In this document: positions 11,501-46,652 of the stretch, in pieces | How the letters are laid out: each line of letters opens with the position of its first letter | Numbering within the stretch: the first letter of the stretch is position 1 | Assembly: GCA_902560225.1 (NCBI GenBank) | Contig: CACEKT010000005.1 | Span: 1-46,652, forward strand | DNA length: 46,652 bases | Reading direction: 5' to 3' | Source of the DNA: an uncultured Pelagibacteraceae bacterium | GTDB taxonomy: Bacteria > Pseudomonadota > Alphaproteobacteria > Pelagibacterales > Pelagibacteraceae | Made by a program: the position numbers and the translations under genes | Notes under the pieces: model-generated | The model's input: the letters and a program-made list of their open reading frames with translations, nothing else | Told to the model about the DNA's origin: nothing | The model's database searches: none

Positions 11501-11529
11501 AAAAACAGTATTTATATTAATTATTAGTT

Positions 11530-14150: not shown

Positions 14151-14170
14151 TCAGCGAAACTATCCTTTCT

Positions 14171-15130: not shown

Positions 15131-15186
15131 TTATAAACAAAATGTACCACATTCTTTTTAAATCGAATATCATCTAAATTATTTTT

Positions 15187-15909: not shown

Positions 15910-15911
15910 AA

Positions 15912-18693: not shown

Positions 18694-18742
18694 AGAGAGC
18701 TTCTTATATAATTTTTCTTCATCATGTAATAAAAAAAATGAC

Positions 18743-26304: not shown

Positions 26305-26358
26305 TAGAAACTTTTTTTAAGTAGTATTATATATTATTTAACTTTTAAATTTAATTAA

Positions 26359-28198: not shown

Positions 28199-28203
28199 TT
28201 ATT

Positions 28204-29946: not shown

Positions 29947-29950
29947 TTAT

Positions 29951-30286: not shown

Positions 30287-30311
30287 TAAATCAATAATTA
30301 TAAATTTATTT

Positions 30312-31457
30312 ATGTCAAAAAATATAAAGTTAAATATGTCTAGAAGAATTAGAAGAACCCCCTACACGAATAGAGTGGAAGAACATGGTGTTTCAGATTT
30401 TACAGTGGTAAATCATATGCTTCTACCAAAAGGATTTAAAAATTCCATTGAAGAGGATTACTGGCATTTAAATAAAGAAGTTCAAATTTGGGATGTATCA
30501 TGTCAACGACAAGTCCAAATTAGTGGTCCTGATGCACTTAAACTTGTACAAAAAATGACCCCTAGATCATTAAAAAATATGGAAATAGGAAAATGCTTTT
30601 ATATTCCAATCCTTAATGAAAATGCTGGCATGATAAATGATCCTGTCTTACTTAAACTAGAGGACGATATGTTTTGGATCTCAATTGCGGACTCTGACAT
30701 TTTGTTATGGGCTAAAGGATATGCTTTAGGTTTAAATTTAGACGTAAAAATTATAGAGCCAGATGTTTATCCATTAGCTATTCAGGGTCCTAAATCTGAG
30801 AAGTTATTAATAGACATATTTGGAGAAGATATAAAAAAAATTAAATTTTTTAATTTTAGGATAGTTGATTTTATGGGAACTAAACAAATTATTGCTCGAT
30901 CAGGCTACAGTAAACAGGATGGGTTTGAAATATATTTTAAAACACACGAAAAATATTTTGATAATGTTGAAATGGGAGAAAAACTTTGGGATACAATTTG
31001 GGAAGCTGGACAAAAATTTAATATATCACCAGGATGTCCAAATTTAATTGATAGAATTGAAGGAGGATTAATGTCTTATGGTAATGATTTTACTATAGAA
31101 AATAACCCATTAGAGTGCAATTTGGAAAAATACTGTAAAAAAGATGTTGTTCATGATTTTATCGGGAAATCAGCTTTATCAAAAATTCATAATGATGGAA
31201 TAAAACAAAAAATGAAAGGTATTACATTTGAAGGTGAGCCGTGTTATGGAATTGGCCAGCCATTACCAGTATTTTCAAAGGATAATAAAAGAATAGGTCA
31301 AATAACTTCGGGTATTTATTCTCCAAGAGTTAAAAAAAATATTGGTCTATCTATGATATTAAAAGATTACTGGGATGAAGGGAGAGATATAATAGTTCAA
31401 ACATTGAATGGACAAAAAACAAATGGGACTATTACGTCTTTGCCATTTCCAGATTAA
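30312..31457 (+). CDS. DMSP demethylase-like protein (DmdA/GcvT superfamily)
   Basis: A 381-residue folate-dependent methyltransferase strongly resembling Pelagibacter DmdA, which takes a methyl group from dimethylsulfoniopropionate to tetrahydrofolate. The N-terminal SRRIRRTPYTNRVEEHGV, the VNHMLLPKGF and QIWDVSCQRQVQISGPDA segments, FWISIADSDILLW, and PGCPNLIDRIEGGLMSYGND match DmdA as I recall it. The start at 30312 is chosen because an in-frame upstream ATG (30258) would overlap the previous gene and adds no conserved residues. Several positions differ, so it may be a DmdA paralogue with another substrate. It is followed by a thiolase and preceded by the transthyretin-like gene. Confidence 0.82.
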   Translation: MSKNIKLNMSRRIRRTPYTNRVEEHGVSDFTVVNHMLLPKGFKNSIEEDYWHLNKEVQIWDVSCQRQVQISGPDALKLVQKMTPRSLKNMEIGKCFYIPILNENAGMINDPVLLKLEDDMFWISIADSDILLWAKGYALGLNLDVKIIEPDVYPLAIQGPKSEKLLIDIFGEDIKKIKFFNFRIVDFMGTKQIIARSGYSKQDGFEIYFKTHEKYFDNVEMGEKLWDTIWEAGQKFNISPGCPNLIDRIEGGLMSYGNDFTIENNPLECNLEKYCKKDVVHDFIGKSALSKIHNDGIKQKMKGITFEGEPCYGIGQPLPVFSKDNKRIGQITSGIYSPRVKKNIGLSMILKDYWDEGRDIIVQTLNGQKTNGTITSLPFPD

Positions 31458-31474
31458 ATAGCTATATATAATAT

Positions 31475-32599
31475 ATGTTTAAAGCGGTTATTGCAGGATA
31501 TTCTAGATCTCCTTTTACTATGGCAAAAAAAGGTGAGCTAATTGATATAAAGCCAGTAAATATGCTCGCTGAAGTAATTAAATCATTAACAACTAAATCA
31601 AAAATAAACAAAGAAGATATAGAAGATATCGTTATAGGATGCGCTTTTCAAGTTGGTGAACAATGTTTTAATATTGGAAAGCTAGTAACTTTTCTCACTG
31701 ATATGAAAATTAAAACCTCAGGCATGACTGTAGATAGATGGTGTGGATCTTCTATGGAAGCAATACATATTGCTGCAGGAAAAATTGCAATGGGTTCAGG
31801 AAGAGTATTTATTTGTGGTGGAGTTGAAAGTATGACAAGAGTAAATACTGGTTTTGATCCAATTCCTTATCCATATATAGAAAAAGAAAATCCAAATGTC
31901 TATTTTACAATGGGTATTACTGCTGAAAATGTTGCAAAAAAATTTAATATTTCAAGAAAAGAACAACAAGAGTTTGCTATTAACAGTCATCAAAAAGCTT
32001 ATGAAGCACAAAATAATGGTAAATTTAAAAATGAAATTGTAACAATTGGAAGTTGTAGTATTGATGGAAATATTCGACCAAATAGTAACCAAGAAAAATT
32101 AGATGGATTAAAACTTGCATTTGATCAAAATGGAACTGTTACAGCAGCAACCTCTTCACCATTAACTGATGGAGCATCAGCTGTTCTAATTTGTGAGGAA
32201 AATTATGCCAAAGAAAATAATTTAGAAATACTTGGAAGAATAGTTTCTACTGCAGTTGAAGGTTGTGAGCCAGATTTTATGGGTTTAGGTCCAATTGGAG
32301 CATCAAGAAAAGCATTAAAAAGAGCTAACCTTTCAATAAATCAAATAGATATTGTAGAGATTAATGAAGCTTTTGCCTCTCAATCAATTGCTTGTATAAA
32401 AGATTTAGGAATTGATATTAATAAAGTAAATTTAGATGGAGGAGCTCTAGCATTAGGTCATCCTTTAGGAGCAACAGGATCAAGAATTACTGGTAAAGCA
32501 TCAGAGCTACTAATTAGAGAAAATAAAAAATATGCTTTATCTACACAATGCATAGGTCTTGGGATGGGCATTGCTACTGTTATAGAAAATATACATTAA
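31475..32599 (+). CDS. Thiolase family acetyl-CoA acyltransferase
   Basis: A 374-residue thiolase that either condenses or cleaves acyl-CoA esters. The nucleophilic cysteine is C90 in MTVDRWCGSSMEAIHIA. The remaining catalytic motifs are complete: VEINEAFASQ, GGALALGHPLGATGSRI (His) and STQCIGLGMGIATVIE (second Cys). Length is slightly below the usual ~390. It is 17 bases after the DmdA-like gene and 11 bases before the aminotransferase, within the plus-strand block. A role in cleaving the carbon skeleton left by the preceding enzymes is inference; general beta-oxidation is the alternative. Confidence 0.92.
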   Translation: MFKAVIAGYSRSPFTMAKKGELIDIKPVNMLAEVIKSLTTKSKINKEDIEDIVIGCAFQVGEQCFNIGKLVTFLTDMKIKTSGMTVDRWCGSSMEAIHIAAGKIAMGSGRVFICGGVESMTRVNTGFDPIPYPYIEKENPNVYFTMGITAENVAKKFNISRKEQQEFAINSHQKAYEAQNNGKFKNEIVTIGSCSIDGNIRPNSNQEKLDGLKLAFDQNGTVTAATSSPLTDGASAVLICEENYAKENNLEILGRIVSTAVEGCEPDFMGLGPIGASRKALKRANLSINQIDIVEINEAFASQSIACIKDLGIDINKVNLDGGALALGHPLGATGSRITGKASELLIRENKKYALSTQCIGLGMGIATVIENIH

Positions 32600-32610
32600 G
32601 TCAAAAATTA

Positions 32611-33492
32611 ATGGAACAAATACCCTTTGATAAAAGATCAGGAAAAATTTGGTTTAACAATGAGTTAGTTGAATGGCAAGATGCTAAGGTTCATGCAATA
32701 AGTCATGGAATGCATTATGCAAGTTTAGTTTTTGAAGGTGTAAGAATTTATAATTCAAAAATATTTAAACTTGAAGAACACACTGAAAGATTGTTTCACT
32801 CAGCTAAAATTATGGATATGAAAATTCCATATACTGAAGATGAGATTAACAAAATAACTAAAAAATTAGTCCAAGATCAAGATATCCAAGATGGATATAT
32901 AAGACCTTTTGTTTGGAGAGGAAGTGAAATGATGGGTGTTTCTGCACAAAATACAAAAATTAATGTTGCAATAGCAATATGGGATTGGCCTGCTTATTTT
33001 GATCCAAAAGTAAAGTTAAATGGTATTAAACTAAACATTTCAAAATGGCAAAGACCTCCTCAAAACTCATCTCCTTGGAATAGTAAAGCTGCAGGTCTAT
33101 ACATGATATGCACCCTATCAAAACATCAGGCTGAAAGAGATGGATTCACAGATTCTTTAATGCTTGATCATGAAGGTAATGTAGCTGAAGCCACTAGTGC
33201 TAATATTTTTTTTAAAGATCAAAATAATGAGCTACATACACCAATAGCTGACTCTTTCTTAGATGGAATTACCAGAAAAACAGTAATTGATTTAGCAAAA
33301 TCAAAAAATATTAAAGTAAACGAAAGAAAAATATCTCCAAATGAGATATCTAATTTTGTTGGTTGTTTTATCACAGGTACAGCAGCAGAGATAACTCCAG
33401 TCGGGAGTATATTAGATAACAATTTTAAAATTTGTGATTTAATTAAAGATCTTTCAACTAGTTACGAAAAGCTTGTGGGCAAAAACAATTAA
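32611..33492 (+). CDS. ilvE: Branched-chain amino acid aminotransferase
   Basis: A 293-residue fold-type IV PLP aminotransferase. The PLP lysine is K159 in SPWNSKAAGLYMICTLSKH. HGMHYASLVFEGVRIY, DGYIRPFVWRG and HEGNVAEATSANIFF are the IlvE signatures, and ITRKTVIDLAK closes the core. It would interconvert Leu/Ile/Val with their 2-oxo acids. The start at 32611 (MEQIPFDKRSG) is preferred; a longer frame from 32548 lies inside the thiolase gene. It closes the plus-strand block and meets the TRAP transporter tail to tail with 8 bases between. Confidence 0.92.
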   Translation: MEQIPFDKRSGKIWFNNELVEWQDAKVHAISHGMHYASLVFEGVRIYNSKIFKLEEHTERLFHSAKIMDMKIPYTEDEINKITKKLVQDQDIQDGYIRPFVWRGSEMMGVSAQNTKINVAIAIWDWPAYFDPKVKLNGIKLNISKWQRPPQNSSPWNSKAAGLYMICTLSKHQAERDGFTDSLMLDHEGNVAEATSANIFFKDQNNELHTPIADSFLDGITRKTVIDLAKSKNIKVNERKISPNEISNFVGCFITGTAAEITPVGSILDNNFKICDLIKDLSTSYEKLVGKNN

Positions 33493-33500
33493 ATCTAAAA

Positions 33501-34766
33501 TTAAATAAGATTTGGCAACCAAGTAGAAAATACAGGAAATAGTATCATTAAAATTCCATACACTATTCCAACAATTACAAATAAAGGAACTTCTCTAAAT
33601 GCTTTTGCTGGATTTTCTTTTATAACTCCTGCTGCAGTATATATACCAACACAGACTGGAGGGGTTATCATTCCTATTCCAGCGAAGGCAACAAAAACTA
33701 CATATAAATGTAAAAGACTTTGATTGAAAGATAATGTAATCGCAGCAAAAATTGGAACTGTTAAATAAAATACAGGAACTATTTCTATAAAAGTTCCAAG
33801 TATCAAACAAATTGCCCCCAACATAACCCAGAATAAATTTACGCTAACACCCATTTCAGTAAAATAAGTAATAATTTTTTGTGGAGCTTGAGTGTATGTT
33901 AGAACTACACTTAAAAAGGTTGCTGTTGCAATAATAGAAAATATTACAGCTGTTATAATTGCAGTTTCTTTAAGACAACTTAATAATGAAGTTAAAGTTA
34001 ATTCTCTGTAAATTAAAAAACCTATTGCTACTGCATATACACCAGCTATCGCTGCAGACTCAGATGGAGTAAGAAATCCAGCATATATACCTCCTAAAAT
34101 TATTATTGGAGTAATTAGAGCTGGTAAAGCTGCTACAAAAGAATTTATTCTTTCTTTGAAAGAGGCTTTTTTGTCTGTTTTAATATGTCTGCATTTTAAC
34201 AGAACTAACATAACCATTAATAAAAGAAGAATTAAACCTGGTATTACACCTGCTGCAAATGTTTTTGATACAGGAACATATGTAAGTGCACTAAATAAAA
34301 TAGCAGCATTTGAAGGAGGTATCAGAGCTTCGAGCAAAGCTGCTGAAGCTGCAAGCACTACAACAAAAGGGGTTGGATAACCTTGCTCAATCATCTTAGG
34401 CATCATGATGGTTCCAATTGCAGTAATAGCAGCAAGAATTGATCCGCAAAAAGCTGCAAAAAAACCCATTGCTAATACCATTGCAACACCCAAACCACCT
34501 GGCCAATGACCAACTAATGTTGTTGCGAATTTTACTAACCTTAATGCGGCTCCTCCTTTTAACATTGCCATTCCACTAAAAATAAACAAGGGTACAGCTA
34601 TTAGAACATGTTTAGTTAAAGCACCAAAAGATACTTGAATTAATACTGACCAAGGAAGATTAAGTCCACCAATTGCTGCTATTGAACTTCCTAATCCAAA
34701 TACCAAAAAAATTGGAACAGAAATAAGTAAAGTTACAATAGATAAAATAAAAGCGAGAACAAACAT
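33501..34766 (-). CDS. dctM: TRAP transporter large permease
   Basis: A 421-residue very hydrophobic protein with about twelve spans, the large subunit of a tripartite ATP-independent periplasmic transporter. Family landmarks include VPLFIFSGMAMLKGGAA, FFAAFCGSILAAITAIGTIMMP, EALIPPSNAAILF and GMITPPVCVGIYTAAGV. It forms the sodium-driven channel with the small subunit encoded 9 bases upstream. It is the last gene of the dctPQM-order operon. Confidence 0.94.
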   Translation of the reverse strand: MFVLAFILSIVTLLISVPIFLVFGLGSSIAAIGGLNLPWSVLIQVSFGALTKHVLIAVPLFIFSGMAMLKGGAALRLVKFATTLVGHWPGGLGVAMVLAMGFFAAFCGSILAAITAIGTIMMPKMIEQGYPTPFVVVLAASAALLEALIPPSNAAILFSALTYVPVSKTFAAGVIPGLILLLLMVMLVLLKCRHIKTDKKASFKERINSFVAALPALITPIIILGGIYAGFLTPSESAAIAGVYAVAIGFLIYRELTLTSLLSCLKETAIITAVIFSIIATATFLSVVLTYTQAPQKIITYFTEMGVSVNLFWVMLGAICLILGTFIEIVPVFYLTVPIFAAITLSFNQSLLHLYVVFVAFAGIGMITPPVCVGIYTAAGVIKENPAKAFREVPLFVIVGIVYGILMILFPVFSTWLPNLI

Positions 34767-34775
34767 TATTTAAAC

Positions 34776-35267
34776 TTATTTATTCATTAAGTTTAAAAAA
34801 TTATCAAATATCAACTCTAATGCTGTAAGGGCTAATATTAAAAAACCCACTGGAAAGGCTAAAAACATCCACCAAATTGGAATACTAATTTCTATTTCCA
34901 TTACTTGTCCTAAGTTATAATACATGATGGTTGCATCTAGACCCGCTTTAAAAAATACACAAGCTGAAATAAAAGCAACTAAATTGACTAACAAAAATAA
35001 AATCTTTTTAAATCTTTCAGATAATATAGGAGTTAAAAAATCTACTTTTATATGTTGGCCTTTTTTCAATAATGGTCCAAGCAATGGAAAAACTAACCAA
35101 CTAACTAAAACAGGTGGCAGCTCTATAAACCATGCAAATCCAGTTCCTGTTATAAATCTTGTGGTTGCACTTAAAAATAAAGCAGCAACCATAATAAAAA
35201 TTATTGACATTGCGAGCATCATAGATGCCGAAGCAAATAAATTGTTAATTGCTCGCAATGCTTTCAT
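34776..35267 (-). CDS. dctQ: TRAP transporter small permease
   Basis: A 163-residue protein with four predicted spans and the DctQ-family centre WFIELPPVLVSWLVFPLLGPLLKKGQHIKVD. It associates with the large permease in the inner membrane. It lies 27 bases after the binding protein gene and 9 bases before dctM, the standard TRAP order. Confidence 0.92.
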   Translation of the reverse strand: MKALRAINNLFASASMMLAMSIIFIMVAALFLSATTRFITGTGFAWFIELPPVLVSWLVFPLLGPLLKKGQHIKVDFLTPILSERFKKILFLLVNLVAFISACVFFKAGLDATIMYYNLGQVMEIEISIPIWWMFLAFPVGFLILALTALELIFDNFLNLMNK

Positions 35268-35294
35268 TTTTTTAGACTAAGCTAATAACTTATT

Positions 35295-36314
35295 CTAATT
35301 ATTCTTTGTGTACTCTTGTGCAGCAACTAAAGCATCAGAGTCGATCATTTTAGCCATAGCTGGCATAACTTTTTCTTTCATTAGCTTATCAAATTTAGCT
35401 TTTTCAGCCCCTGAAAGAGTAGTTACCACGCCACCTCTGTCTTGGAATTCCTTTAGAACTGTTTCACCATGATCCATAATTCTATCTGTTGAAAGAGTTC
35501 CAACTTCTTTACCAACATCCATAATTATTTTTTGTAAATCAGCTGGTAAACTGTTAAACCAAGTTGAATTTGCCATTATATAAGCGTCAGCATAATATTG
35601 ATATGGCTTTTGTGCATATTTTAAAAATTCCCACCAACTATATGCTTTGATACTTCCTGGAGGACTATTTATTGTATCAATCATTCCTGATTGTAAAGCG
35701 TTATATACTTCTCCAGTTTTTAGAGACACACGATTTGCTCCAAGAGCGTCCCACATAGGCTCTTCACTCTTAAGTAACCTTCTAGCTTTCAAACCTTTCA
35801 TGGCATCTATTCCTGTTAATTCACGAGCGCTAGAAATTGACATTACTGGCCCTACAGGATTATACATAATTAATGTTGAATTAGTTTTTTTGGTTAGTTC
35901 ACCCCAGATTTCTTTTCCTTTTGGTGAATTTTGAAAAAAACCTCTTTGTTGTTCCCAAGAATTAAATAATCCAGGAAATGAAGCTACATTAAAGTTTTTA
36001 TTTATTGGAGGAAAACTAACTACTCCAACTATTCCACCAAGCTCAACAGCCCCTGATGTTACTGCTCCCATAACCTCTCTAATTCCAAAAAGTTGCTTAG
36101 AAGGATATACTTCAATTTTTAATTTACCCTTTGCTCTTTTATTAACCTCATCAGCAAAGATTTGTGCATGTTTAGCACTATGATGCTTTGGACTCCAATG
36201 AACTGAAAGTCGGCCTACTATTTCTGAAGCCAAAACCGAAGTCGATGAAATTATAAGAGATAATAGAACAAAAAAAGCAATTAAAGTTTTTGATAATTTA
36301 TTAATAATACTCAT
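35295..36314 (-). CDS. dctP: TRAP transporter substrate-binding protein
   Basis: A 339-residue periplasmic DctP-family protein with a signal peptide ending near SSTSVLASE. Visible motifs: LSVHWSPKHHSAKHAQIFADEVNKRA, KLKIEVYPSKQLFGIREVMGAVTSGAVELG, MKGLKARRL (the conserved Arg region that clamps the substrate carboxylate) and GEVYNALQSGMIDTINSPP. It binds an organic acid or ectoine-type solute; which one is not shown. A strong GGAGAG ribosome binding site precedes the ATG. No carboxylate pathway is uniquely tied to it, though the neighbouring plus-strand block or the doeA/eutA genes could use its cargo. Confidence 0.92.
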   Translation of the reverse strand: MSIINKLSKTLIAFFVLLSLIISSTSVLASEIVGRLSVHWSPKHHSAKHAQIFADEVNKRAKGKLKIEVYPSKQLFGIREVMGAVTSGAVELGGIVGVVSFPPINKNFNVASFPGLFNSWEQQRGFFQNSPKGKEIWGELTKKTNSTLIMYNPVGPVMSISSARELTGIDAMKGLKARRLLKSEEPMWDALGANRVSLKTGEVYNALQSGMIDTINSPPGSIKAYSWWEFLKYAQKPYQYYADAYIMANSTWFNSLPADLQKIIMDVGKEVGTLSTDRIMDHGETVLKEFQDRGGVVTTLSGAEKAKFDKLMKEKVMPAMAKMIDSDALVAAQEYTKNN

Positions 36315-36389
36315 TATTTCTCTCCATTAATTGTTATTTATATAATGAGTTTAATAACTAATTAGCCATAGGTCTATTTATTTAAAAAA

Positions 36390-36411
36390 ATAATAATCAA
36401 TTATAAATTGA
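36390..36411 (-). terminator. Weak possible terminator after the Pot-type operon
   Basis: An AT-only 6-bp stem TCAATT (36397-36402)/AATTGA (36406-36411), read on the minus strand, is followed by a T-rich stretch. It lies just past the end of the last permease gene, in the 108-base gap before the TRAP binding protein gene. The stem is weak, so the call is tentative. Nothing else is seen in the gap. Confidence 0.3.
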
Positions 36412-36422
36412 ATTTTGAGAAA

Positions 36423-37277
36423 TTAACGGTTAATTCCTCTTAATCTTTCAGATCTTCTTCTAAGAAGTTCTGCGCTAACTAAAATTAACGTAGACATTAC
36501 AATTAAACAAGTCGCAACAGCCATAATAGTTGGACTTAACTGCTCTCTTAGTCCTACCCACATTTGAATTGGAATAGTTGTATTTTCAAGACCTGCTAAA
36601 AATAATACTACAACAACTTCATCAAATGAAGTTACAAAAGCAAACAACGCTCCAGATATAACTCCTGGCATAATTAATGGTAGAGTTATTTTCATAAAAG
36701 TATTTACTGGATTGCTACCTAAACTCGCAGCAGCTCTAGTTACACTATGATCAAATCCAGTTAATGTTGCAGTTACAGTAATTACAACAAATGGAGTTCC
36801 TAAAATTATGTGAGAAAGTATAATTCCAGTATGTGTTGCGGCCAATCCTACTTTTGCCATAAAGAAAAATATTGCTGTACCTGAAATTATCAAAGGAACA
36901 ATCATTGGTGAAATCAATAAAGCCATAAATGCTGCTTTGTATGGCATATGTCTGCTACTCAATCCCAATGCAGCAACTGTCCCAAGAATTGTTGAGCCTA
37001 TTGTTGCAAAGAATGCAATGATTAAACTATTTTTTGTGGCTAATCCCCATGGATTTTTTGTTCCATAGATCATATCTTCGTACCATCTTAAAGAAAATCC
37101 TTCAGGATCCAATGCTAACATCTTTGCTGAAAAATGGATGTATTGTTCGGCATTAAATGAAAGTGGTAAAATTACAAATAATGGTGCTATCAAAAAGAAA
37201 AACACCAAACCACAAAAAGTTAAATATGTATAATGCCATATTCTATAATTTAGAGGAGTGTGATTTGGTAAAGCCAT
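36423..37277 (-). CDS. ABC permease, PotC type
   Basis: A 284-residue permease with six spans and the type I ABC importer EAA loop near VTRAAASLGSNPVNTFMKITLPLIMP, followed by SGALFAFVTSFDEVVVVLFL, which is characteristic of PotC/YdcV-type polyamine permeases. It pairs with the PotB-type protein encoded 3 bases upstream and is the last gene of the operon. Confidence 0.92.
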   Translation of the reverse strand: MALPNHTPLNYRIWHYTYLTFCGLVFFFLIAPLFVILPLSFNAEQYIHFSAKMLALDPEGFSLRWYEDMIYGTKNPWGLATKNSLIIAFFATIGSTILGTVAALGLSSRHMPYKAAFMALLISPMIVPLIISGTAIFFFMAKVGLAATHTGIILSHIILGTPFVVITVTATLTGFDHSVTRAAASLGSNPVNTFMKITLPLIMPGVISGALFAFVTSFDEVVVVLFLAGLENTTIPIQMWVGLREQLSPTIMAVATCLIVMSTLILVSAELLRRRSERLRGINR

Positions 37278-37280
37278 TTT

Positions 37281-38528
37281 TTATCCTAATTTAATATTAT
37301 CAATCCCTACAAGTTTATTATAAACCCAATATATTGCTAAAACTCCAACCAAGAGCATTGTTCCAAGAGCTGATGCAAAAGCCCAGTCTAATGAGCTTTT
37401 CATATGATAAGCAATTGAATTGCTTATCAGGGAACCGCTTGCCCCTCCGACTAACGCAGGAGTTATATAATAACCAATCGCTAAGATAAATACTAATAAA
37501 CATCCAGCTCCTATACCCGGTATCGTCAAAGGAAAATAAATTTTTAAAAAGGATATTAATGGTGTTCCACCTAATGATTTTCCTGCTCTCATCAAACTAG
37601 GAGATATAGTTTTCATAACACTATAGAGAGGCAATACCATGAATGGTAATAAAATTTGTGTCATTGCAACAAATGTTCCTACAACGTTGTACATTAACTC
37701 TGGCCTATTATCATCTGCTGCTATGCCAAGCCAAACAATCAAATCATTAATTGGTCCTTGCTGTTGAAGCAAAACCATCCAACTGGAGGTTCTTACTAAT
37801 AATGACGTCCAAAAAGGAAGTAAGACACAAATCATTAATAAATTGCTATATTTCATAGGCAAAGTTGCCAATAAATGTGAGATCGGATAAGCAAGAATAA
37901 AACAAAATAAAGTAACCCAAAAAGCTACATTTAAAGTTCTCATCCATAAAATTTTATAAATCCTTCTATCTTCCTCAACTAGAACAATATTTCTATCTTG
38001 ATCAAATCTCATATCTATTCCTTTGAGATATTTTGCATATGACCAATTTGGAGCAGCATTTTTTAATGCAACTAAGTATTCTGGTTGACTCCACCTTTTA
38101 TGAACTTTAATAAACTGTTCTTTATAATTTCCCTCTTCAAATTTATCGAGTTTTCTAACCGTTTTTTTAATTAAACTACTAAATCCTGATTTCTCGTAAT
38201 TTAATCTTGCTATAATTTTTCCATATGTTTTGTTTTCTTTCAAAAATTTTAAATCCTCATACAATCCTTTATAAACTGTTTCATCTGGTAAATTCTGTCC
38301 ATCCCAATTTTCAATGGCTTTAAATGTTTTGGGCAACATTTTTGTAATCATTCTATCGTCAACACTTCTAAAAAGCATATCTCCAATAGGAAAAACATAA
38401 ATGATTAAAAGAAATAGAAATAAAGGAGCTACAAGTAAAACAGCTTTTAATTTATTTTTTCTTTCAGCTTTTTTTAAGCTTTGCTCTAGTGGTATTCCGT
38501 CAGATGATAATATTTGCTCTTTGCTCAT
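37281..38528 (-). CDS. ABC permease, PotB type, with long inserted domain
   Basis: A 415-residue permease, well above the ~285 usual for PotB. The first span (about 28-48) is followed by roughly 135 hydrophilic, Lys-rich residues (about 55-190) before the second span at 195-215, so an extra periplasmic domain is inserted there. The rest is a normal PotB core, including the EAA-type loop LMRAGKSLGGTPLISFLKIYFPLTIPG. It starts 12 bases from the terminator-like hairpin that separates it from the binding protein gene. The insertion might contact the binding protein. The core fold and pairing with a PotC-type permease are clear; the substrate is not. Confidence 0.9.
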   Translation of the reverse strand: MSKEQILSSDGIPLEQSLKKAERKNKLKAVLLVAPLFLFLLIIYVFPIGDMLFRSVDDRMITKMLPKTFKAIENWDGQNLPDETVYKGLYEDLKFLKENKTYGKIIARLNYEKSGFSSLIKKTVRKLDKFEEGNYKEQFIKVHKRWSQPEYLVALKNAAPNWSYAKYLKGIDMRFDQDRNIVLVEEDRRIYKILWMRTLNVAFWVTLFCFILAYPISHLLATLPMKYSNLLMICVLLPFWTSLLVRTSSWMVLLQQQGPINDLIVWLGIAADDNRPELMYNVVGTFVAMTQILLPFMVLPLYSVMKTISPSLMRAGKSLGGTPLISFLKIYFPLTIPGIGAGCLLVFILAIGYYITPALVGGASGSLISNSIAYHMKSSLDWAFASALGTMLLVGVLAIYWVYNKLVGIDNIKLG

Positions 38529-38531
38529 AAT

Positions 38532-38564
38532 AAAAAAAAAGGGCGGTTAGTTATATAACCGCCC
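38532..38564 (-). terminator. Hairpin with U-tract between binding protein and PotB-type gene
   Basis: The 9-bp perfect stem GGGCGGTTA (38541-38549)/TAACCGCCC (38556-38564) with a 6-base loop is followed on the minus strand by nine U (38540-38532). It sits 36 bases after the binding protein stop and ends 4 bases before the PotB-type start codon. It is a strong intrinsic terminator placed inside the operon, which should reduce permease expression relative to the binding protein. Confidence 0.88.
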
Positions 38565-38600
38565 TAATAATATAGTAAAAACTTAATCTATAAAACTAAA

Positions 38601-39728
38601 TTATAGACCAGCTTTCATTGCTTCCCACTTCTCATTAATCTCATCCTGGTTATCTGCCCAGTAATCAGGGTTCATAAGAATATGGCTTTTTAAGTTAGCA
38701 GGATTCGTTGGCATATGAGGTACCATGTTTGTTTTACCATCTTTATACCAAGGCTCTCCAGCTTCCATTACAGCAATTGAAGATTTTCTCCAAGGAGCAT
38801 ATGCAATATACTTAGCACTTCCAGCTAAACCTTCTGAGCTTGTCATTTCTCTAAGTACTTTCAAAGCTTCACCATTAGCATCGTTAGGTCCACCCTTAAC
38901 CATTGCAAAATATTCATAGTCAAGAATTTGAGCATCCCATACTTGTACAAGTGGAGTTCCTTCCATTTGTGCATTAAAGAATCTACCGTTCCAACCAGTA
39001 GCCATAACTACTTCACCATTAGCTAATAGTTCTGGTGGTTGAGCTCCAGCATTCCAAAATACACATCCACCATTTGGATCTGTACAAAGTGCTTTAATTT
39101 TGTTTAAAGCTCTGTCAATACCAGCACCTTCCATTTTTCTGTAAAGTAAGTCTCCACCAGCTTGTGATCCACTAGCTTTTACTCCATCAGCAACCAATGC
39201 GATCTCTAAGTTAGACATAGCACCTTTGTAGATTGCTCTTTTTCCTGGAAACTTTTTAGTATTAAAAAAGTCTTTAATTGTTTTTGGTTTTTTGTCTCCA
39301 ATAGTTGCATCATTGTAAGCAAAATTCCAAGAGTAAAGAATGTTACCAACTGCACATTTAGATGGCATGCTAGTAAAGAAGTCTTGACTTGCAGGTGTTC
39401 CATCTGGAGCAGGCGCGAAATCTTTATCAAAATCAAATTCAACAAAAATTCCTTCATCACATCCAATGATTGTATCTTTTGCATATACATCCATGATGTC
39501 CCAAGTAATTGCACCAGCTTCTTTTTGTGCTTTAATTTCTGATAATCCACCAGTGTAGTCTACCCAATCTACAGGTATTCCTAATTTTGCAGCTGTAGGA
39601 TCACCATACCCTAATTTTTGACTCTCAGTATAAGCACCACCCCAAGACACAACAGTAACTGCAAATGCTGAAGTTGTAATTGAAAGTACAAAAGAAAGAG
39701 CAAGTAATAATTTACTTAATTTTTTCAT
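38601..39728 (-). CDS. Polyamine-type ABC substrate-binding protein
   Basis: A 375-residue periplasmic protein with signal peptide MKKLSKLLLALSFVLSITTSAFA. The mature start VTVVSWGGAYTESQKLGYGDP and later YSWNFAYNDATIGDKKPKTIKDFFN and NGEVVMATGWNGRFF are typical of the PotD/YdcS-like family, which binds polyamines and related cationic or zwitterionic solutes. Four cysteines (CDEG, SKCAV, CTDPNGGC) may form disulfides. AGGAG precedes the start on the minus strand. It lies between the ATPase gene and the permease genes, with a terminator-like hairpin after it. A nearby doeA/eutA pair makes an ectoine-type solute conceivable, as inference. Confidence 0.9.
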   Translation of the reverse strand: MKKLSKLLLALSFVLSITTSAFAVTVVSWGGAYTESQKLGYGDPTAAKLGIPVDWVDYTGGLSEIKAQKEAGAITWDIMDVYAKDTIIGCDEGIFVEFDFDKDFAPAPDGTPASQDFFTSMPSKCAVGNILYSWNFAYNDATIGDKKPKTIKDFFNTKKFPGKRAIYKGAMSNLEIALVADGVKASGSQAGGDLLYRKMEGAGIDRALNKIKALCTDPNGGCVFWNAGAQPPELLANGEVVMATGWNGRFFNAQMEGTPLVQVWDAQILDYEYFAMVKGGPNDANGEALKVLREMTSSEGLAGSAKYIAYAPWRKSSIAVMEAGEPWYKDGKTNMVPHMPTNPANLKSHILMNPDYWADNQDEINEKWEAMKAGL

Positions 39729-39830
39729 TTATTCTCCTAATTTAACGTTAACGTTTTATTTTTATAAAGTTAAAGTAAAACAATATAGATTAACTTAGTC
39801 AACAGCTGAATCGGAGAATTTCAATAATGT

Positions 39831-40916
39831 CTATTTTGGGTCTAAAGCTCTGCAATCAATACTATTCCAGCCAATAGTGATTTCTCTACCTTCTTTAATA
39901 TCCATTCTATTTGAACTATTTGGAACCTTAAGTATAAAATCTTTGTTGCCTAACAAGTCAACTCTTAATCTTGTATGATCACCATGATATATAACTTCTT
40001 CAATTTTTCCTTTGTGATTATTGTCCATTTGAGTCTCTGGATCAATAATCGCTCTTTCAGGTCTCAGTGAAACTGTAGTTTTTTCTCCCTTTGATTTGGC
40101 AACTATAGGGTTTGCCAATATTTCTGATCCAGAATTTAATTTTACTTTACATTTATCTCCCGAAGCATCAATAATTTCTCCTGCAAAAGTATTATTTTCA
40201 CCAATGAATTCTGCAACAAATGAATTAACTGGTCTCTCATATAATTCATCCGGACTAGAAAGTTGTTGAACTTTACCATCATTAAACACAGCAATTCTAT
40301 TAGACATTGTTAATGCTTCTGTTTGGTCATGTGTAACATATACAACTGTTACACCAATACTTTCATGTATATGTTTAATTTCATATTGCATACTTTCTCT
40401 TAAGTTTTTATCTAAAGCACCAAGCGGCTCATCCATCAGAACCAGTTGAGGATCAAAAACTAGTGACCTTGCAACAGCTACCCTTTGTTGTTGGCCACCT
40501 GATAATTGCATTGGCATTCTGGCTTCAAAACCTTGAAGCGATACCATTGATAATGCTTTATCTACTTTTTTATCTGCTTCATCTTTAGGAATCTTTCTTA
40601 CTCTTAATGGAAATGCTAAATTTTCATAGACAGTCATATGGGGAAATAATGCATAGTTTTGAAACACCATTCCTATACCTCTTTTATGCGGGGGAATATC
40701 TGAAATAACTTTGTTATCTAAATAAATTTGCCCATTAGTTGGAGTTTCAAATCCTGCTAGCATCATTAGACATGTTGTTTTACCTGAACCAGATGGTCCA
40801 AGCATCGTAACAAATTCTCCCTCTGCTATATCTAAATCTAGTCCTTTAACGACAAGTTGCTTTCCATCGTAACTTTTATCTACATTTTCAAATCTTACGA
40901 ATTGATCATTAGCCAT
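39831..40916 (-). CDS. ABC transporter ATPase, PotA type
   Basis: A 361-residue ATPase. Walker A is GPSGSGKT at 40-47; the signature LSGGQQQRVAVARSLVFDP and LVLMDEPLGALDKNLRESMQ follow, then the switch THDQTEALTMSNRIAVF. The C-terminal ~110 residues form a TOBE-type domain (EVIYHGDHTRLRVDL), as in PotA/UgpC ATPases. It energises the PotB/PotC-type permeases encoded downstream. It is the first gene of the transporter run; the doeA copy ends 39 bases upstream on the same strand, so read-through from it is possible. Confidence 0.94.
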   Translation of the reverse strand: MANDQFVRFENVDKSYDGKQLVVKGLDLDIAEGEFVTMLGPSGSGKTTCLMMLAGFETPTNGQIYLDNKVISDIPPHKRGIGMVFQNYALFPHMTVYENLAFPLRVRKIPKDEADKKVDKALSMVSLQGFEARMPMQLSGGQQQRVAVARSLVFDPQLVLMDEPLGALDKNLRESMQYEIKHIHESIGVTVVYVTHDQTEALTMSNRIAVFNDGKVQQLSSPDELYERPVNSFVAEFIGENNTFAGEIIDASGDKCKVKLNSGSEILANPIVAKSKGEKTTVSLRPERAIIDPETQMDNNHKGKIEEVIYHGDHTRLRVDLLGNKDFILKVPNSSNRMDIKEGREITIGWNSIDCRALDPK

Positions 40917-40955
40917 AAGTGTTTAAAACATTTGTTAGATTGATAATCAAGCGAT

Positions 40956-42071
40956 TTATTTAATAAATAATTCTTTACTCATATTACAAAATAATTCGCT
41001 ACCACTATCGGTTACTCTAACTGCTTCAGAAGCCTCAACACCCCAATCTCCAAACTGCATAACAGCGATCATATGAAAGCAAACATTTGGCTCTAAAACA
41101 GTCATGTCCCCTTTGTATATATTCAAGGTGTGTTCTCCCCAATCAGGTGGATAACCAATACCAATTGAATAGCCTGTTCGAGATTTTTTTTCTATTCCAT
41201 ACTTATCAAGTATTTTCCAAAAAGCCTGTGCCACATCATCTGCTGTATTTCCAGGTTTTACTGCACTTATGCCACTTTCAAGTGCCTCGATAGTTTTTTT
41301 CATAGTATCAATTTTTAATTGATCAGGTTTACCCAATAATATTGTTCGAGCCATTGGTGCGTGATACCTCTTATAAACTCCAGAAAGCTCTATAATGGTT
41401 GCTTCTCCCTCAACAAATTTATCTTGTGTAGCAGTTAAGTGTGAAGCTGAGGTTCCTTTCCCTGTAGGAAGTAAAGTTGCAATACTGGCGTACTCTCCTC
41501 CAAATTCTTTAGTTCCATAAAATAATGATTTTTGGATTTCACCAACCGCATCACATTGTCTAACACCTGGATTAATAACTTCCATTGCAGTTTTCATAGA
41601 TTTTTCTGAAATTAATGCTGCAGATTTCATGTAACTTATTTCTGTATCTGATTTAACTAATCTTGCCCAATTAACTAGTCTATCACTATCTTTAATTTTA
41701 GCATTTGGCAAACCTTGTTTGATTTTCTCATAGCAAAATGCTGTAAAGTAATGAGCATCCATTTCTAAACCTATAGAAAGCTGATCCCATTTTCTTTCTT
41801 TAATTATTTGAACTAAATAATCATAAGGGTGTCTGGGCCAAGTATGAATATAACTTTCATCATAAACGATAACATTTTCATTTTTTAAATAAGTTTTGAT
41901 ATATGCACCTCCGGCGTCTTGAGCTCTTACAAAACATAAAGGTTCATCAGCATCAACATGGACTATCGCACATTGAGCATAATAAAAAGACCAAGCATCA
42001 TAACCTGTCAGATAATTTAAATTATTTGTATCATGCGAAATTAATAATTCGATGCCTTTATCTTGCATCAT
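40956..42071 (-). CDS. doeA: Ectoine hydrolase-like M24 protein, 5'-truncated copy
   Basis: A 371-residue protein of the creatinase/DoeA branch of the M24 family. DoeA opens ectoine to N-acetyl-diaminobutyrate. Visible motifs: TGYDAWSFYYAQCAIVHVD, FGGEYASIATLLPTG, GYSIGIGYPPDWGEH and the late GDWGVEASEAVRV. The usual metal-ligand aspartates of M24 peptidases are replaced (ELSGVYKRYHAPMART), as in metal-free creatinase/DoeA enzymes. The N-terminus is cut: the sister copy at 43779 has 17 further residues (MDFTKEEYKQRLKKVQK). It now starts at an internal methionine whose ATG overlaps the TGA of the serine hydrolase fragment. The protein could still be made and fold, but lacks the first helix. 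Confidence 0.8.
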   Translation of the reverse strand: MMQDKGIELLISHDTNNLNYLTGYDAWSFYYAQCAIVHVDADEPLCFVRAQDAGGAYIKTYLKNENVIVYDESYIHTWPRHPYDYLVQIIKERKWDQLSIGLEMDAHYFTAFCYEKIKQGLPNAKIKDSDRLVNWARLVKSDTEISYMKSAALISEKSMKTAMEVINPGVRQCDAVGEIQKSLFYGTKEFGGEYASIATLLPTGKGTSASHLTATQDKFVEGEATIIELSGVYKRYHAPMARTILLGKPDQLKIDTMKKTIEALESGISAVKPGNTADDVAQAFWKILDKYGIEKKSRTGYSIGIGYPPDWGEHTLNIYKGDMTVLEPNVCFHMIAVMQFGDWGVEASEAVRVTDSGSELFCNMSKELFIK

Positions 42072-42080
42072 TTTCTGAAC
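41795..42080. repeat. 286-bp perfect direct repeat, copy A
   Basis: The bases match 43796-44081 with no mismatch or gap on reading, at a constant offset of 2001. The repeat covers the 5' part of the doeA coding region from just after its first residues to the VQIIKE segment. Outside these limits the two flanks diverge at once. Confidence 0.95.
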
Positions 42081-42415
42081 ATTTTTGTAATTGACATTAT
42101 TGTTTGTGGAGTTTTTTCATTAAAGTCACTTGCATATTTTTCAAATAATATTTCTTGATTTTTTCCAACTAATAATGAACAAAAATACTTATGCTTAATA
42201 ACTTTTTTTACAGAAGGTATATTTTCAATTTTTTTATTATATTTTTTATTAAGTTTTAAAACTAAATCAGATCTATATAGCAAGCCATATCTATTTATTT
42301 TGTGTAAATTTCTATATCCTTCTCTACGACTTTCTGGCAAATACCATTTTGGTTTATTGTCTCTTAAAACCACAAGACTAGGATTAGCTTCACTTTTAAG
42401 CTTATCGTTACTCAT
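42068..42415 (-). pseudogene. N-terminal fragment of a beta-lactamase-like serine hydrolase
   Basis: A 115-residue ORF. The sequence ESRREGYRNLHKINRYG near the start and FEKYASDFNEKTPQTIMSITKMF at the end look like the N-terminal third of a class C beta-lactamase/DD-peptidase-type hydrolase, ending exactly at the SxxK nucleophile motif (SITK). Full-length members are several hundred residues, so the rest is missing. The break coincides with the boundary of direct-repeat copy A at 42080/42081; the last few codons (FRK) and the stop come from doeA sequence. It starts 17 bases after the homocysteine methyltransferase stop. It is very probably non-functional. Confidence 0.75.
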
Positions 42416-42432
42416 AAATGTTTGTCCTTATT

Positions 42433-43350
42433 TTATTCTTTTAATACTGATATTGCCTTTATTTCCGCAACCCCTAAGCCACAACATCCTCCGATAATTT
42501 GAACTCCACTGTTGGACCAAGATTTTGCATATTTTAAATAATCACCAGGAGTAAAATTATCTGCAAATTTCCAATGAGGTTTTTCATAATACCCTGTATT
42601 TGGATAAGCACCCAATATTCCATTAAAGTTTTTTTTTGCAATTTCTATAGCTTTTCCAGTAACATCGACGTCACTATGTGCAATTAAAATTGGACCTTTG
42701 TGAAGTTTGCTAAATCTATTTAATGATTTTTCAAAGTTTTCATAAACTTCAGGTGGAGAGTCTACAGTATCGTTATAGCCAAGCATTACATTTTTGGTTT
42801 TATCATCTATTACACATGATATTGAAAGCCAAACAGGAATATTTATTTTATATGAACATTCAATCATTGTCTGAACAATATCTGCTTGAGATGACATTGC
42901 TTCTAAAATAATTAAATCAACACCTTCCTCTTTTAAGATTTTAATTTGTTTTTTAAAACCAGGAATCATTGCATCAATTCCCAATCTATAAAAACTTCCA
43001 CTGGCTGACACACTGCCAGCCAAAGCAATATTTTTTTTTGAATTTTTAATTGCTTTTTTTGCTACCTGGACACTTTTTTGGTTAAACTCTTCAATTGATT
43101 TTTCTAATCCATAGTTTTTCATTGAAATTGGTGTGCAAGCGTATGTATTTGTAGTAATTATGTCTGCTCCAGCACTAATATATTCCTCATGAACTTTCGT
43201 TACTAATTCAGGGAATTCAACAGAACACGTGCCACACCATAAATCTTTATCCATTTTAGCCCCCTTTTTTTCAAGCTCCGATCCCATGGCTCCATCTAAA
43301 ATTACTAATTTACCATTATCTAATTTTTCTTTAATAAGATTGTATGTCAT
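42433..43350 (-). CDS. Homocysteine S-methyltransferase family protein
   Basis: A 305-residue zinc-dependent methyltransferase of the MmuM/BHMT family, moving a methyl group to homocysteine from S-methylmethionine, betaine or a similar donor. The start LVILDGAMGSELEKKG and ADIITTNTYACTPISM are typical. Zinc cysteines appear in SISCVID and the paired IIGGCCGLGVAEI near the C-terminus. Length is usual for MmuM. It overlaps the VOC gene by one base and lies inside the segment flanked by the 286-bp repeats. No SAM-type riboswitch is seen upstream, since the gap is absent. Confidence 0.88.
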   Translation of the reverse strand: MTYNLIKEKLDNGKLVILDGAMGSELEKKGAKMDKDLWCGTCSVEFPELVTKVHEEYISAGADIITTNTYACTPISMKNYGLEKSIEEFNQKSVQVAKKAIKNSKKNIALAGSVSASGSFYRLGIDAMIPGFKKQIKILKEEGVDLIILEAMSSQADIVQTMIECSYKINIPVWLSISCVIDDKTKNVMLGYNDTVDSPPEVYENFEKSLNRFSKLHKGPILIAHSDVDVTGKAIEIAKKNFNGILGAYPNTGYYEKPHWKFADNFTPGDYLKYAKSWSNSGVQIIGGCCGLGVAEIKAISVLKE

Positions 43351-43736
43351 TAGGTTTTGTTATTTGTAAAAGCACAAATTTTATTCCCATCTAAATCACG
43401 AATATAAGAATAGTAAACTCCTGAATTAGGAGGTCTCTCTCCACCTGATCCTTCACTTTTACCACCTGCTTTTAATCCAGTTTTATGAAAATTATCAACC
43501 ATATGTCGTGAGTCTGTAACAAATGAAACCTGTGTGCCATTACCATTAGTAGCTTTTTCTTTATCAAAAGGTTTTGTTACATAAAATTCAATTGCTGTTG
43601 GTTTTTCTATAGGAGCATAAGCTGCATATTCAGGATCTGTCTCCACTCTTTTTATATTAATTGATTTTAATATTTCATCATAAAAACTAATGGCTTTATC
43701 AAGATCATTAGTTCCAACCATTACATAACCAATCAT
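43350..43736 (-). CDS. VOC (glyoxalase/bleomycin resistance) family protein
   Basis: A 128-residue vicinal oxygen chelate protein. It begins MIGYVMVGTNDLDKAISFYDEIL and ends with YYSYIRDLDGNKICAFTNN, the usual two-half VOC pattern with the RDLDGN turn. The canonical early His ligand is replaced (YVMVGT), while the glutamate in AIEFYV is present. The substrate is unknown; such proteins include glyoxalase-like lyases and dioxygenase or binding relatives. It is the first gene inside the repeat-flanked segment, 42 bases after the end of the doeA fragment. Confidence 0.85.
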   Translation of the reverse strand: MIGYVMVGTNDLDKAISFYDEILKSINIKRVETDPEYAAYAPIEKPTAIEFYVTKPFDKEKATNGNGTQVSFVTDSRHMVDNFHKTGLKAGGKSEGSGGERPPNSGVYYSYIRDLDGNKICAFTNNKT

Positions 43737-43778
43737 ATTACTTTCAACAACATTTCTATTCTTCTTTTATCACAATAA

Positions 43779-44123
43779 TTATATTTCATATCCTATTTCT
43801 TTAATTATTTGAACTAAATAATCATAAGGGTGTCTGGGCCAAGTATGAATATAACTTTCATCATAAACGATAACATTTTCATTTTTTAAATAAGTTTTGA
43901 TATATGCACCTCCGGCGTCTTGAGCTCTTACAAAACATAAAGGTTCATCAGCATCAACATGGACTATCGCACATTGAGCATAATAAAAAGACCAAGCATC
44001 ATAACCTGTCAGATAATTTAAATTATTTGTATCATGCGAAATTAATAATTCGATGCCTTTATCTTGCATCATTTTCTGAACTTTTTTTAATCTTTGTTTA
44101 TATTCTTCTTTAGTAAAATCCAT
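43779..44123 (-). pseudogene. doeA-like 5' fragment, 3'-truncated copy
   Basis: A 114-residue ORF starting MDFTKEEYKQRLKKVQKMMQ that is identical to the other doeA copy from MMQDKG to VQIIKE, then ends in IGYEI and a stop after leaving the repeat. It has the native start and its native neighbour, eutA, 4 bases upstream, so this is the original 5' end of the gene. The catalytic C-terminal two-thirds is absent, so the product cannot be an active hydrolase. Confidence 0.85.
43796..44081. repeat. 286-bp perfect direct repeat, copy B
   Basis: Matches 41795-42080 base for base on reading. Together the copies bound a 1715-base segment (42081-43795). The repeat length is far greater than any transposon target duplication, and no inverted terminal repeats or transposase are present between the copies. 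Confidence 0.95.
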
Positions 44124-44127
44124 AATT

Positions 44128-44871
44128 CTAATTTTTAAATAATTTTCCAAAACCATCTATTGAAGATTTTTTTCCAATTGATTGTAATGTATCCCATATC
44201 AGAACTTGATTACTAGATAAGACTACTTTGTTTAATTTTTTTTCAAGTTTTTCTATAATTGACAATGCTGGTAAGGCTGTACAAGAAATAAAAAGACAGT
44301 CTGCATTTCCTAAATCCATCTCTAATAAAGTTTTATACAGATAATCTTCATCAACTTTACCGATATCTAAATCGTTTGTAATATCAAAATATGCATTTGA
44401 TGTAATTTTAAAATTTTGGCTTTCAAAATATTTAACCACATCATCATTTAAAGCTTTAGAATAAGGGGTGAATATTGAAATATTTTTAATGTTCATTTTT
44501 CTTAAAGCGTTAATTGCAGCTGTGCTAGGTGTTGTAACTTTAGCCTCTGGTTTTGCTAAATTAACTTTTTTTTTAATCGTGTCATATCCTGCAGCTATAG
44601 TTCCAGATGTACATCCATATACAACACAATCTATTTTTTCATTAGGTAAAATATCTTCTGAAATTTCTGTTACAGTGTTAGACATTTTGATTAAATTTTC
44701 ACTTGTTAAAGGAGCATAACAATGAATACGATTTACAAAGAAATCTATATCTTGATCTTTAATTACGTTAATAAAATCTTTTTCAATTCTAAAATCAGTA
44801 GCTAATGCGATTAAACCAATTCTAGGGTTCGATTTACTAGTATATTTAGGCTCTATTTTAGTTGAATTCAT
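44128..44871 (-). CDS. eutA: EutA-like Asp/Glu racemase superfamily protein
   Basis: A 247-residue protein of the aspartate racemase/maleate isomerase superfamily. The start RIGLIALATDFRIEKDF and VVYGCTSGTIAAGYD match EutA of ectoine utilisation as I recall it. The two catalytic cysteines are in YGCTSG and in FISCTALPAL, and VTTPSTAAINALRKM is also typical. The exact reaction of EutA is not established. It is 4 bases upstream of the native doeA start, the same pairing seen in ectoine-utilisation operons, which supports the call; maleate isomerase or arylmalonate decarboxylase relatives are alternatives. It is divergent from an EamA-type gene (60-base gap). Confidence 0.82.
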   Translation of the reverse strand: MNSTKIEPKYTSKSNPRIGLIALATDFRIEKDFINVIKDQDIDFFVNRIHCYAPLTSENLIKMSNTVTEISEDILPNEKIDCVVYGCTSGTIAAGYDTIKKKVNLAKPEAKVTTPSTAAINALRKMNIKNISIFTPYSKALNDDVVKYFESQNFKITSNAYFDITNDLDIGKVDEDYLYKTLLEMDLGNADCLFISCTALPALSIIEKLEKKLNKVVLSSNQVLIWDTLQSIGKKSSIDGFGKLFKN

Positions 44872-44931
44872 ATTTCAAAAAGTGAATATATCATAAGTTC
44901 TTTAATAATCATTAATATTAAAAATAGCTAT

Positions 44932-45804
44932 ATGAATATAAAAGACACCTTGATTGCATCTTTGGTGCCCATCTTTTTGGGTTTTGGTTTTGTGATTGCA
45001 AAACCTGCTTTCGCGTCATTTCCGCCTATTCTTTTAATGGGTATAAGATTTATTTTTGCAGCATCTATTTTGGTTTGGTGGTTTCCAATACCAAGAGGTT
45101 ATTTAAAAAAAATATTTATCGCCTCCTTCATAGCAAACACTATGCAATATAGTATTACCTATACTGGTTTAAACTACATTGATGCATCTGCTGCAGTTTT
45201 ATTAGTTCAAACAGAAGTTCCTTTTGGAGTTATCTTTGCTTATTTCATGCTTAAAGAAAAACCAACCTTTCGAGCATTGCTTGGTATTGGTATTGCCTTT
45301 GTTGGAGTTTATATTCTAACTGGATCGCCAAATTTAGACGGAAAATTTTTTGGTATTTTTCTAACAATCTTAGGTTCAGCTATTTGGGCGCTTGGACAAG
45401 TTATTGTTAAGCCTCTAAGTAAAGAAATAAATCCATTGGCACTTGTTGCTTGGTTAGCATTATTTTCTGGGCCGATATTAATTAGTTTATCTGCAGTATT
45501 AGATGGAAATACTATAAATTATTTGAAATCAGCAAGCTTTGATCATTGGATAATTGCAATCTATATTGGATTTATTATGCAGCCAATAACTTACGGTTGT
45601 TTTTATTATGTTTTAAAAAACAACCCATTATATAAAGTGCTACCTATTGTTACAATGGGTATTCCACCTACAGGTTTATTGGCAGCAATATTTTTATTAG
45701 ATGAAAAACCAACACCTGAATTATTTATAGGTGGAGCAATTATAATAGTAGGAGTTGTTATGATAGTATTTACAAAAAACAAAAAAGATGAGGTAATAAA
45801 ATGA
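44932..45804 (+). CDS. EamA/DMT family transporter
   Basis: A 290-residue protein with about ten spans in two EamA repeats. The first repeat ends near the family motif LLVQTEVPFGVIFAYFMLKEKPTFRALLGIGIAF, and the second ends IPPTGLLAAIFLLDEKPTPELFIGGAIIIVG. Drug/metabolite exporters of this type move amino acids or nucleosides. Its stop overlaps the next start as ATGA (45801-45804), so it is co-translated with the dehydrogenase. It is divergent from eutA. Confidence 0.92.
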   Translation: MNIKDTLIASLVPIFLGFGFVIAKPAFASFPPILLMGIRFIFAASILVWWFPIPRGYLKKIFIASFIANTMQYSITYTGLNYIDASAAVLLVQTEVPFGVIFAYFMLKEKPTFRALLGIGIAFVGVYILTGSPNLDGKFFGIFLTILGSAIWALGQVIVKPLSKEINPLALVAWLALFSGPILISLSAVLDGNTINYLKSASFDHWIIAIYIGFIMQPITYGCFYYVLKNNPLYKVLPIVTMGIPPTGLLAAIFLLDEKPTPELFIGGAIIIVGVVMIVFTKNKKDEVIK

Positions 45805-46652
45805 AAGTAGGTTTTATTGGCTTAGGAAATGTTGGTGGCAAACTTGCAGGAAGTTTGTTGAAAAAAAAGTTTGATTTAACCGTTAGAGATTTAGACCAAA
45901 ATTTAACTAAAGAGTTTACAAACTTAGGAGCAAAAATTGCAAGCTCACCAAAGGAATTAGCTGAAAAAGTTGATTTAATTATTACTTGCCTTCCCTCTCC
46001 AAAAATTTGTGCTGAAGTCATGGAAGGAAAAGATGGAATTTTAAATGGACTTTCTGAAAATAAAATTTGGCTAGAAATGAGTACAACAGATGAAGCTGAA
46101 GTAAAAAGAATTGGTGAAAAAGTAATTGCTAGAAAAGCTATACCTATGGATGGACCAGTAAGTGGAGGATGTCACAGAGCAGCAACTGGAAATATTGCAA
46201 TTTTTGTAGGTGGTGAAAGAAAAATCTTTGAAAAAATATTACCAATACTGACTGTGATGGGTAGAAAAGTATTGCATACCGGTGACCTTGGATCTGCGTC
46301 TATACTTAAAGTAATTACTAATTATTTAGCATCAGTGCATTTAGTTGCTCTGGGTGAAGCTTGGACCGTAGCAAAAAAATCTAATTTAGATTTAGCAAAA
46401 ACATATAAAGGAATAATGGCTTCTTCAGGTAATTCTTTTGTCCATGAAACTGAAAGTCAGGTTATTTTGAATGGATCTTATAATATTAATTTCACTATGG
46501 ATTTAGTTTTAAAAGATACTGGTCTTTTTGATGATTTAGCAAAAAAACTTAAAGCACCTTTAGAAATATCACCTTTAGTTGTTGATATATTTAAAGATGG
46601 ACAAAAAAAATATGGTTCAAAAGCTTGGTCATCTATGATTGTAAAAAGAATG
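45801..46652 (+). CDS. Beta-hydroxyacid dehydrogenase (3-hydroxyisobutyrate type), partial
   Basis: At least 284 residues of an NAD(P)-dependent beta-hydroxyacid dehydrogenase; the gene runs off the right edge. The cofactor motif is at the very start, MKVGFIGLGNVGGKLAGSLL, then DGPVSGGCHRAATGNIAIFVGG for the substrate site and GSASILKVITNYLASVHLVALGE carrying the catalytic lysine. 3-hydroxyisobutyrate, tartronate semialdehyde or a related acid is the likely substrate class. The start overlaps the EamA gene stop as ATGA. Confidence 0.9.
   Translation, partial: MKVGFIGLGNVGGKLAGSLLKKKFDLTVRDLDQNLTKEFTNLGAKIASSPKELAEKVDLIITCLPSPKICAEVMEGKDGILNGLSENKIWLEMSTTDEAEVKRIGEKVIARKAIPMDGPVSGGCHRAATGNIAIFVGGERKIFEKILPILTVMGRKVLHTGDLGSASILKVITNYLASVHLVALGEAWTVAKKSNLDLAKTYKGIMASSGNSFVHETESQVILNGSYNINFTMDLVLKDTGLFDDLAKKLKAPLEISPLVVDIFKDGQKKYGSKAWSSMIVKRM

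Follow-up and report, generated by a model that had tools for sequence, protein, structure and literature searches.

In an uncultured Pelagibacteraceae bacterium (assembly GCA_902560225.1), doeA, the gene for ectoine hydrolase, is split on contig CACEKT010000005.1 by a 1715-bp segment that lies between two perfect 286-bp copies of internal doeA DNA. With a probability of roughly 0.88, this arrangement arose as an artefact when DNA from one cell underwent phi29 multiple displacement amplification (MDA), and was carried into the assembly; the split doeA is most likely not a real genomic feature, and the capture of a small circle is unsupported. The window, the whole stretch of DNA analysed here, is the complete contig (C5; 46,652 bp) of a 919-kb, 47-contig and 67%-complete genome, and the 1715-bp segment was searched for here as well as in 200 further genomes from the genus.

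The insert is a local inverted copy of native DNA, because the closest relative found, genome G103, has the whole segment nearby, in the opposite orientation and running into a full-length gene. There, doeA is intact (C14 13666-14800, plus strand), and the segment is located on the same contig (C14, that is AG-333-P05_NODE_14, with bases identical over the 18,001 compared) in opposite orientation at 17431-19145 of the minus strand, at full length and with 98% identity in the genome search. In direct comparison, window positions 35290-42091 match G103 8000-14800, positions 42078-43801 match 19148-17425 reversed, and positions 43796-46652 match 14505-17357. With S as the segment (S' where inverted), D as the 286 bp, L as the left part, M as the doeA start together with eutA and two genes named by eye, one transporter-like and one dehydrogenase-like, and R as the DNA beyond S, the order is L-D-M-S-R in G103, and L-D-S'-D-M followed by the contig end in the window. 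The genes of S continue in G103 into a full-length gene of 387 aa, a putative serine hydrolase. As S differs from G103 about as much as the adjoining DNA does (98.5% identity over 1724 bp, with 97.3% and 97.8% for the flanks), nothing suggests an outside source.

Exact matching gives 286 identical bases with a period of 2001 for positions 41795-42080 and 43796-44081, precisely as an earlier note on this DNA had read them; leftward no extra base is identical, and a mismatch follows immediately past the right end (a repeat-finding scan returns the same direct repeat as 292 nt at a rounded 100%). Such a perfect repeat is far beyond chance, and it is the sole repeat of at least 60 bp reported within the window. 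The left copy sits in the 3' part of doeA, an open reading frame (ORF; 40956-42071) which covers positions 22-390 of the 391 of the ectoine hydrolase profile, and the right copy in the 5' part with the native start (ORF 43779-44156, profile positions 4-115), and ORF and profile positions thereby agree with the division of the gene that had been proposed. The end of the 5' fragment, IGYEI-stop, arises by chance. The features of the locus are the following:

40956..42071, minus strand: doeA, 3' part, including the left repeat copy; ectoine hydrolase, an M24 peptidase (ORF and profile search)
41795..42080: D, the left one of the two 286-bp copies, from within doeA (exact matching)
42068..42415, minus strand: first part of a gene with 387 aa in G103, cut at J1 (ORF, G103 protein)
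42078..42080: junction J1, 3-bp microhomology AAC, doeA and inverted segment (parent comparison)
42081..43795, minus strand: S', 1715 bp, in the reverse of the orientation that the segment has natively at G103 C14:17431-19145 (genome comparison)
42433..43350, minus strand: homocysteine S-methyltransferase family gene, complete (family profile match)
43350..43736, minus strand: VOC/glyoxalase family gene, complete (Pfam Glyoxalase)
43779..44156, minus strand: doeA, 5' part, whose final IGYEI-stop comes from the neighbouring dehydrogenase-like gene on S'
43796..43801: junction J2, 6-bp microhomology TTTCTT, inverted segment and doeA (parent comparison)
43796..44081: D, right copy of the 286-bp direct repeat (exact matching)
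46652: end of the contig, with 67 bp remaining to the start of native S in G103

Of the three genes that the earlier note had placed between the copies, the VOC and the homocysteine methyltransferase genes are identified by family matches, while the cut gene (ORF 42068-42415) encodes 115 aa which equal the first part of the 387-aa G103 protein; this ORF has no Pfam or NCBIfam match, and 'serine hydrolase' is, for it and for the 387-aa gene, a putative label from the initial sequence reading. Profile scans of six proteins at the locus found no replication or mobility gene among these six and did not assign the insert proteins to transposases; the previous statement that transposase and integrase are absent holds within the limits of these six proteins. 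Transposition with target-site duplication was considered and rejected, as the window has no inverted repeat of at least 60 bp and the insert proteins are not transposases. Between 40 and 46.6 kb, just one inverted repeat of at least 20 bp was present, located in the repeat copies.

A split gene in which extra DNA is flanked by direct repeats of a fragment of that gene is formally the layout of a single crossover, and the earlier note had put forward a Campbell-type integration of a ~2-kb circle with an internal doeA fragment. Such an integration is now scarcely credible, as the cargo is not derived from another replicon but is the inverted native neighbour, 2.9-4.4 kb away in G103, as a circle of D and S' would itself need both inverted joins first, and as the scanned locus proteins include no replication or mobility gene. 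The other proposal, a 2-kb tandem duplication with a subsequent deletion, would account for the 2001-bp period with perfect 286-bp copies; it is likewise barely conceivable, since duplication does not invert DNA, and S natively neither adjoins D nor shares its orientation, as observed in G103 and in 24/24 near pairs. The assembly or amplification chimera that had been named as an alternative is favoured by the inverted local origin of S, the microhomologies and the contig end. It was the comparison with close relatives, also suggested at that time, which decided the question, as both an uninterrupted doeA and the home locus of the insert genes were found.

Both junctions are inverted joins at short microhomologies. 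At J1 (42080/42081) AAC and at J2 (43795/43796) TTTCTT are common to both parents, whereby the native flank of S was read from G103, as the own flank is not assembled in this genome. In the coordinates of G103, the joins bridge distances of 4.36 and 2.93 kb. Among 200,000 random inverted joins drawn at the locus, 8.1% had an overlap of at least 3 and 0.39% one of at least 6, and both together are expected in ~6e-4 of random join pairs. The breakpoints show nothing resembling a recombination site; they fall within doeA, at the very last codons of the dehydrogenase-like gene and within the gene for the 387-aa protein.

Inverted orientation at both junctions, a spacing below 10 kb and complementarity within 2-21 nt correspond to the characteristics of inverted MDA chimeras. 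Lasken and Stockwell (2007; PMC1855051) amplified one Escherichia coli cell by MDA and obtained 475 chimeras, of which 406 were inverted; in 337 of these 406 the joined points lay less than 10 kb apart. Complementarity was 2-21 nt, and a junction arose about every 22 kb. The doeA locus has the same inverted joins within 10 kb at short complementary stretches, but differs from those chimeras in having two consecutive junctions, a path back to the starting gene and a direct repeat left behind. Furthermore, more than 95% of MDA chimera overlaps have been found to be 3-13 nt, with distances mainly below 5 kb, and chimeras of at least three segments exist (PMC5372508). These 2-level (three-segment) chimeras share with the present locus the adjacent origin of all three segments and overlaps within 3-13 nt, although they stem from human short reads and not from a finished bacterial contig, and the distances observed here are above the preferred range. 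The rate quoted for the GORG-Tropics workflow from benchmark cultures is 1.5 misassemblies per 100 kb (PMC11247762), which translates into ~0.7 expected in a contig of this size.

A sequence of events leading to this structure can be proposed. During the copying of doeA, a freed 3' end would anneal via AAC (3 bp) to a displaced strand that has the opposite polarity and lies 4.4 kb along the same locus, 1715 nt would then be copied backwards from this displaced strand until the 3' end is freed again, and the 3' end would re-anneal via TTTCTT (6 bp) to doeA, 286 bp upstream of the point of departure. The outcome would be L-D-S'-D-M replacing the native L-D-M-S-R, with D showing as a perfect direct repeat due to the return 286 bp upstream. 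The order of the two switches is presumed; alternatively, two chimeric molecules sharing S and D may have been joined in the assembly graph, giving the same contig. In either case, doeA would be intact in the living cell.

The end of the contig contributes to the argument. It corresponds to G103 17357, separated by 67 bases from position 17425, where the S match begins, and thus lies at the boundary of S. At the Single Cell Genomics Center, contigs assembled by SPAdes are trimmed by 100 bp at each end, and libraries of 500 bp are used (PMC5519541); assuming that this trimming applies, the untrimmed contig end would have been located ~27-33 bp inside S, and such an end would fit a short-read graph in which S had already been used in the inverted copy. 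As D (286 bp) is shorter than the 500-bp library insert, read pairs could bridge it. A possible fit of the untrimmed end to the k-mer of the assembler was given no weight, as it rests on G103 coordinates and unknown settings. A contig end at the S boundary, as in a tangled graph, would also be compatible with a pure assembly error, whereby unrelated graph edges were joined in the absence of any chimeric molecule. Assembly k-mers are far longer than overlaps of 3-6 bp, and since the junction overlaps amount to just 3 and 6 bp, chimeric reads must have existed, which makes this explanation very improbable.

Beyond the locus itself, a second copy of the insert was not found in this genome, which gives just two short matches of 34-46 bases. 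Equally, the 6.9 kb that follow the insert in G103 give only matches of 63-75% identity in this genome, so that the native order M-S-R is not demonstrable here and the locus lies at the edge of the recovered sequence. The rest of the contig follows G103 without further inversion where G103 has sequence, which is the case for window positions 2-23,289 (C15) and 27,293-42,091 (C14). The ~4 kb at window positions 23290-27292 would belong in the gap that separates the end of C15 from the start of C14, and the G103 assembly lacks them.

Other relatives support an uninterrupted gene. doeA is full length and stop-free in 29/29 relative loci examined, which are the best 30 minus the own locus of a search that matched 166 of 201 genomes, the own included. 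The junction patterns (40 bases, up to 3 mismatches) are present in this genome and in 0/398 others, most of which are too divergent to match, as a 40-base pattern with 3 mismatches needs ~92% identity and among the relatives seen only G103 is so close; that the split is absent from relatives is better supported by the intact doeA in 29 loci. S is found on the start side of doeA and in opposite orientation in all 24 genomes where the two are no more than 15 kb apart on the same contig. Altogether, 37 genomes have S and doeA, 24 of them within 15 kb, 1 at a distance of 67 kb and 12 on different contigs. In the genome with the 67-kb distance (G180), S and doeA are on one contig in opposite orientation with S on the other side, and in G128 and G193 they are on different contigs and far from contig ends; S is not always the neighbour of doeA within the genus. 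These counts derive from a table copied by hand from the search results (41 insert rows and 37 doeA rows), from which G171 and G143 were left out due to a split or partial insert match and, on the doeA side, G124, G054, G048 and G137 due to a doeA match that was weak or not among the matches listed.

Variability is also seen in the vicinity of the genes of S and elsewhere on the contig. The dehydrogenase-like and the VOC gene are neighbours in G103, and this spot is variable across G159 and G073, where ~6.5 kb lie between the two genes, including a stretch similar to window positions 12733-14153. In the same two genomes, the window stretch 32620-33476 is unmatched at the colinear place and has its match on another contig with 75-77% identity; the gene at 32548-33492 (an aminotransferase by eye) seems to move or to come and go at its spot.

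A real mutation in the cell, in which the replication fork at doeA switches to the opposite strand ~4 kb ahead, copies 1.7 kb and returns 286 bp upstream, would yield exactly the same sequence, and the short microhomologies, the identical repeat copies and the local origin of S all fit such an event. Microhomology-mediated templated insertion by template switching is known under the names microhomology-mediated break-induced replication (MMBIR) and fork stalling and template switching (FoSTeS). With these processes in living cells the locus has in common the inverted local template, the microhomology and the return near the start, but their products would have to be present in unamplified DNA. 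A real switch also needs doeA to be broken in one cell, while the gene is whole in 29/29 relative loci, and inverted local joins arise in MDA about once per 22 kb (PMC1855051), so that the prior strongly favours an artefact over a real mutation. A mutational origin is therefore unlikely, and there is but a small chance that the contig documents a two-switch, microhomology-primed inverted insertion knocking out ectoine hydrolase in a single wild SAR11-type cell.

Regarding an origin by MDA, the kin and the assembly statistics suggest that this genome was derived from a single cell. All 11 named relative loci (11/11) have AG- names and NODE contig names, and AG-333, AG-325, AG-365 and AG-414 are single-cell sort plates with DNA amplified by MDA or WGA-X (PMC6122165). 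Several points weigh against an amplification artefact. The single-cell origin of this particular genome is only inferred, and the titles of 5/11 AG- records, AG-333-P05 among them, start with 'MAG:'. Chimeras with one junction make up ~96%, so that two successive switches are less common, and the preferred chimera distance of 80-280 nt is shorter than those observed here (both PMC5372508). No second perfect repeat was found in 54 other stretches of 655,043 bases (megablast, at least 97% identity, E <=1e-10), a sum in which L064 and L067 represent the same DNA, so that ~18 kb are counted twice, and in which a few other pairs share shorter pieces. When 20 contig starts of this genome were compared with 21 G103 stretches (20 contig starts and L064), 8 pairs of stretches (40.7 kb) overlapped in addition to the two pairs that involve the window, and each of the 8 matched as one piece in one orientation. 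The lack of a second repeat and the colinear pairs together indicate that assembled double junctions are uncommon here. Finally, microhomology is also expected from template switching in living cells. Aside from the origin of the split, 'MAG:' titles on records that belong to the single-cell plates AG-333 and AG-325 (PMC6122165) constitute a labelling trap for the users of these records.

For the mining of single-cell genomes, the split doeA is a caution that a perfect direct repeat around a small set of genes within a split gene can mimic a captured mobile circle and yet stem from a local amplification chimera. As a quick discriminator, close relatives can be examined for the inserted genes as native neighbours in inverted orientation, and the contig for an end at the boundary of this neighbour. 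If the event were nevertheless real, the locus would provide a view of template-switch mutation in a wild, streamlined bacterium.

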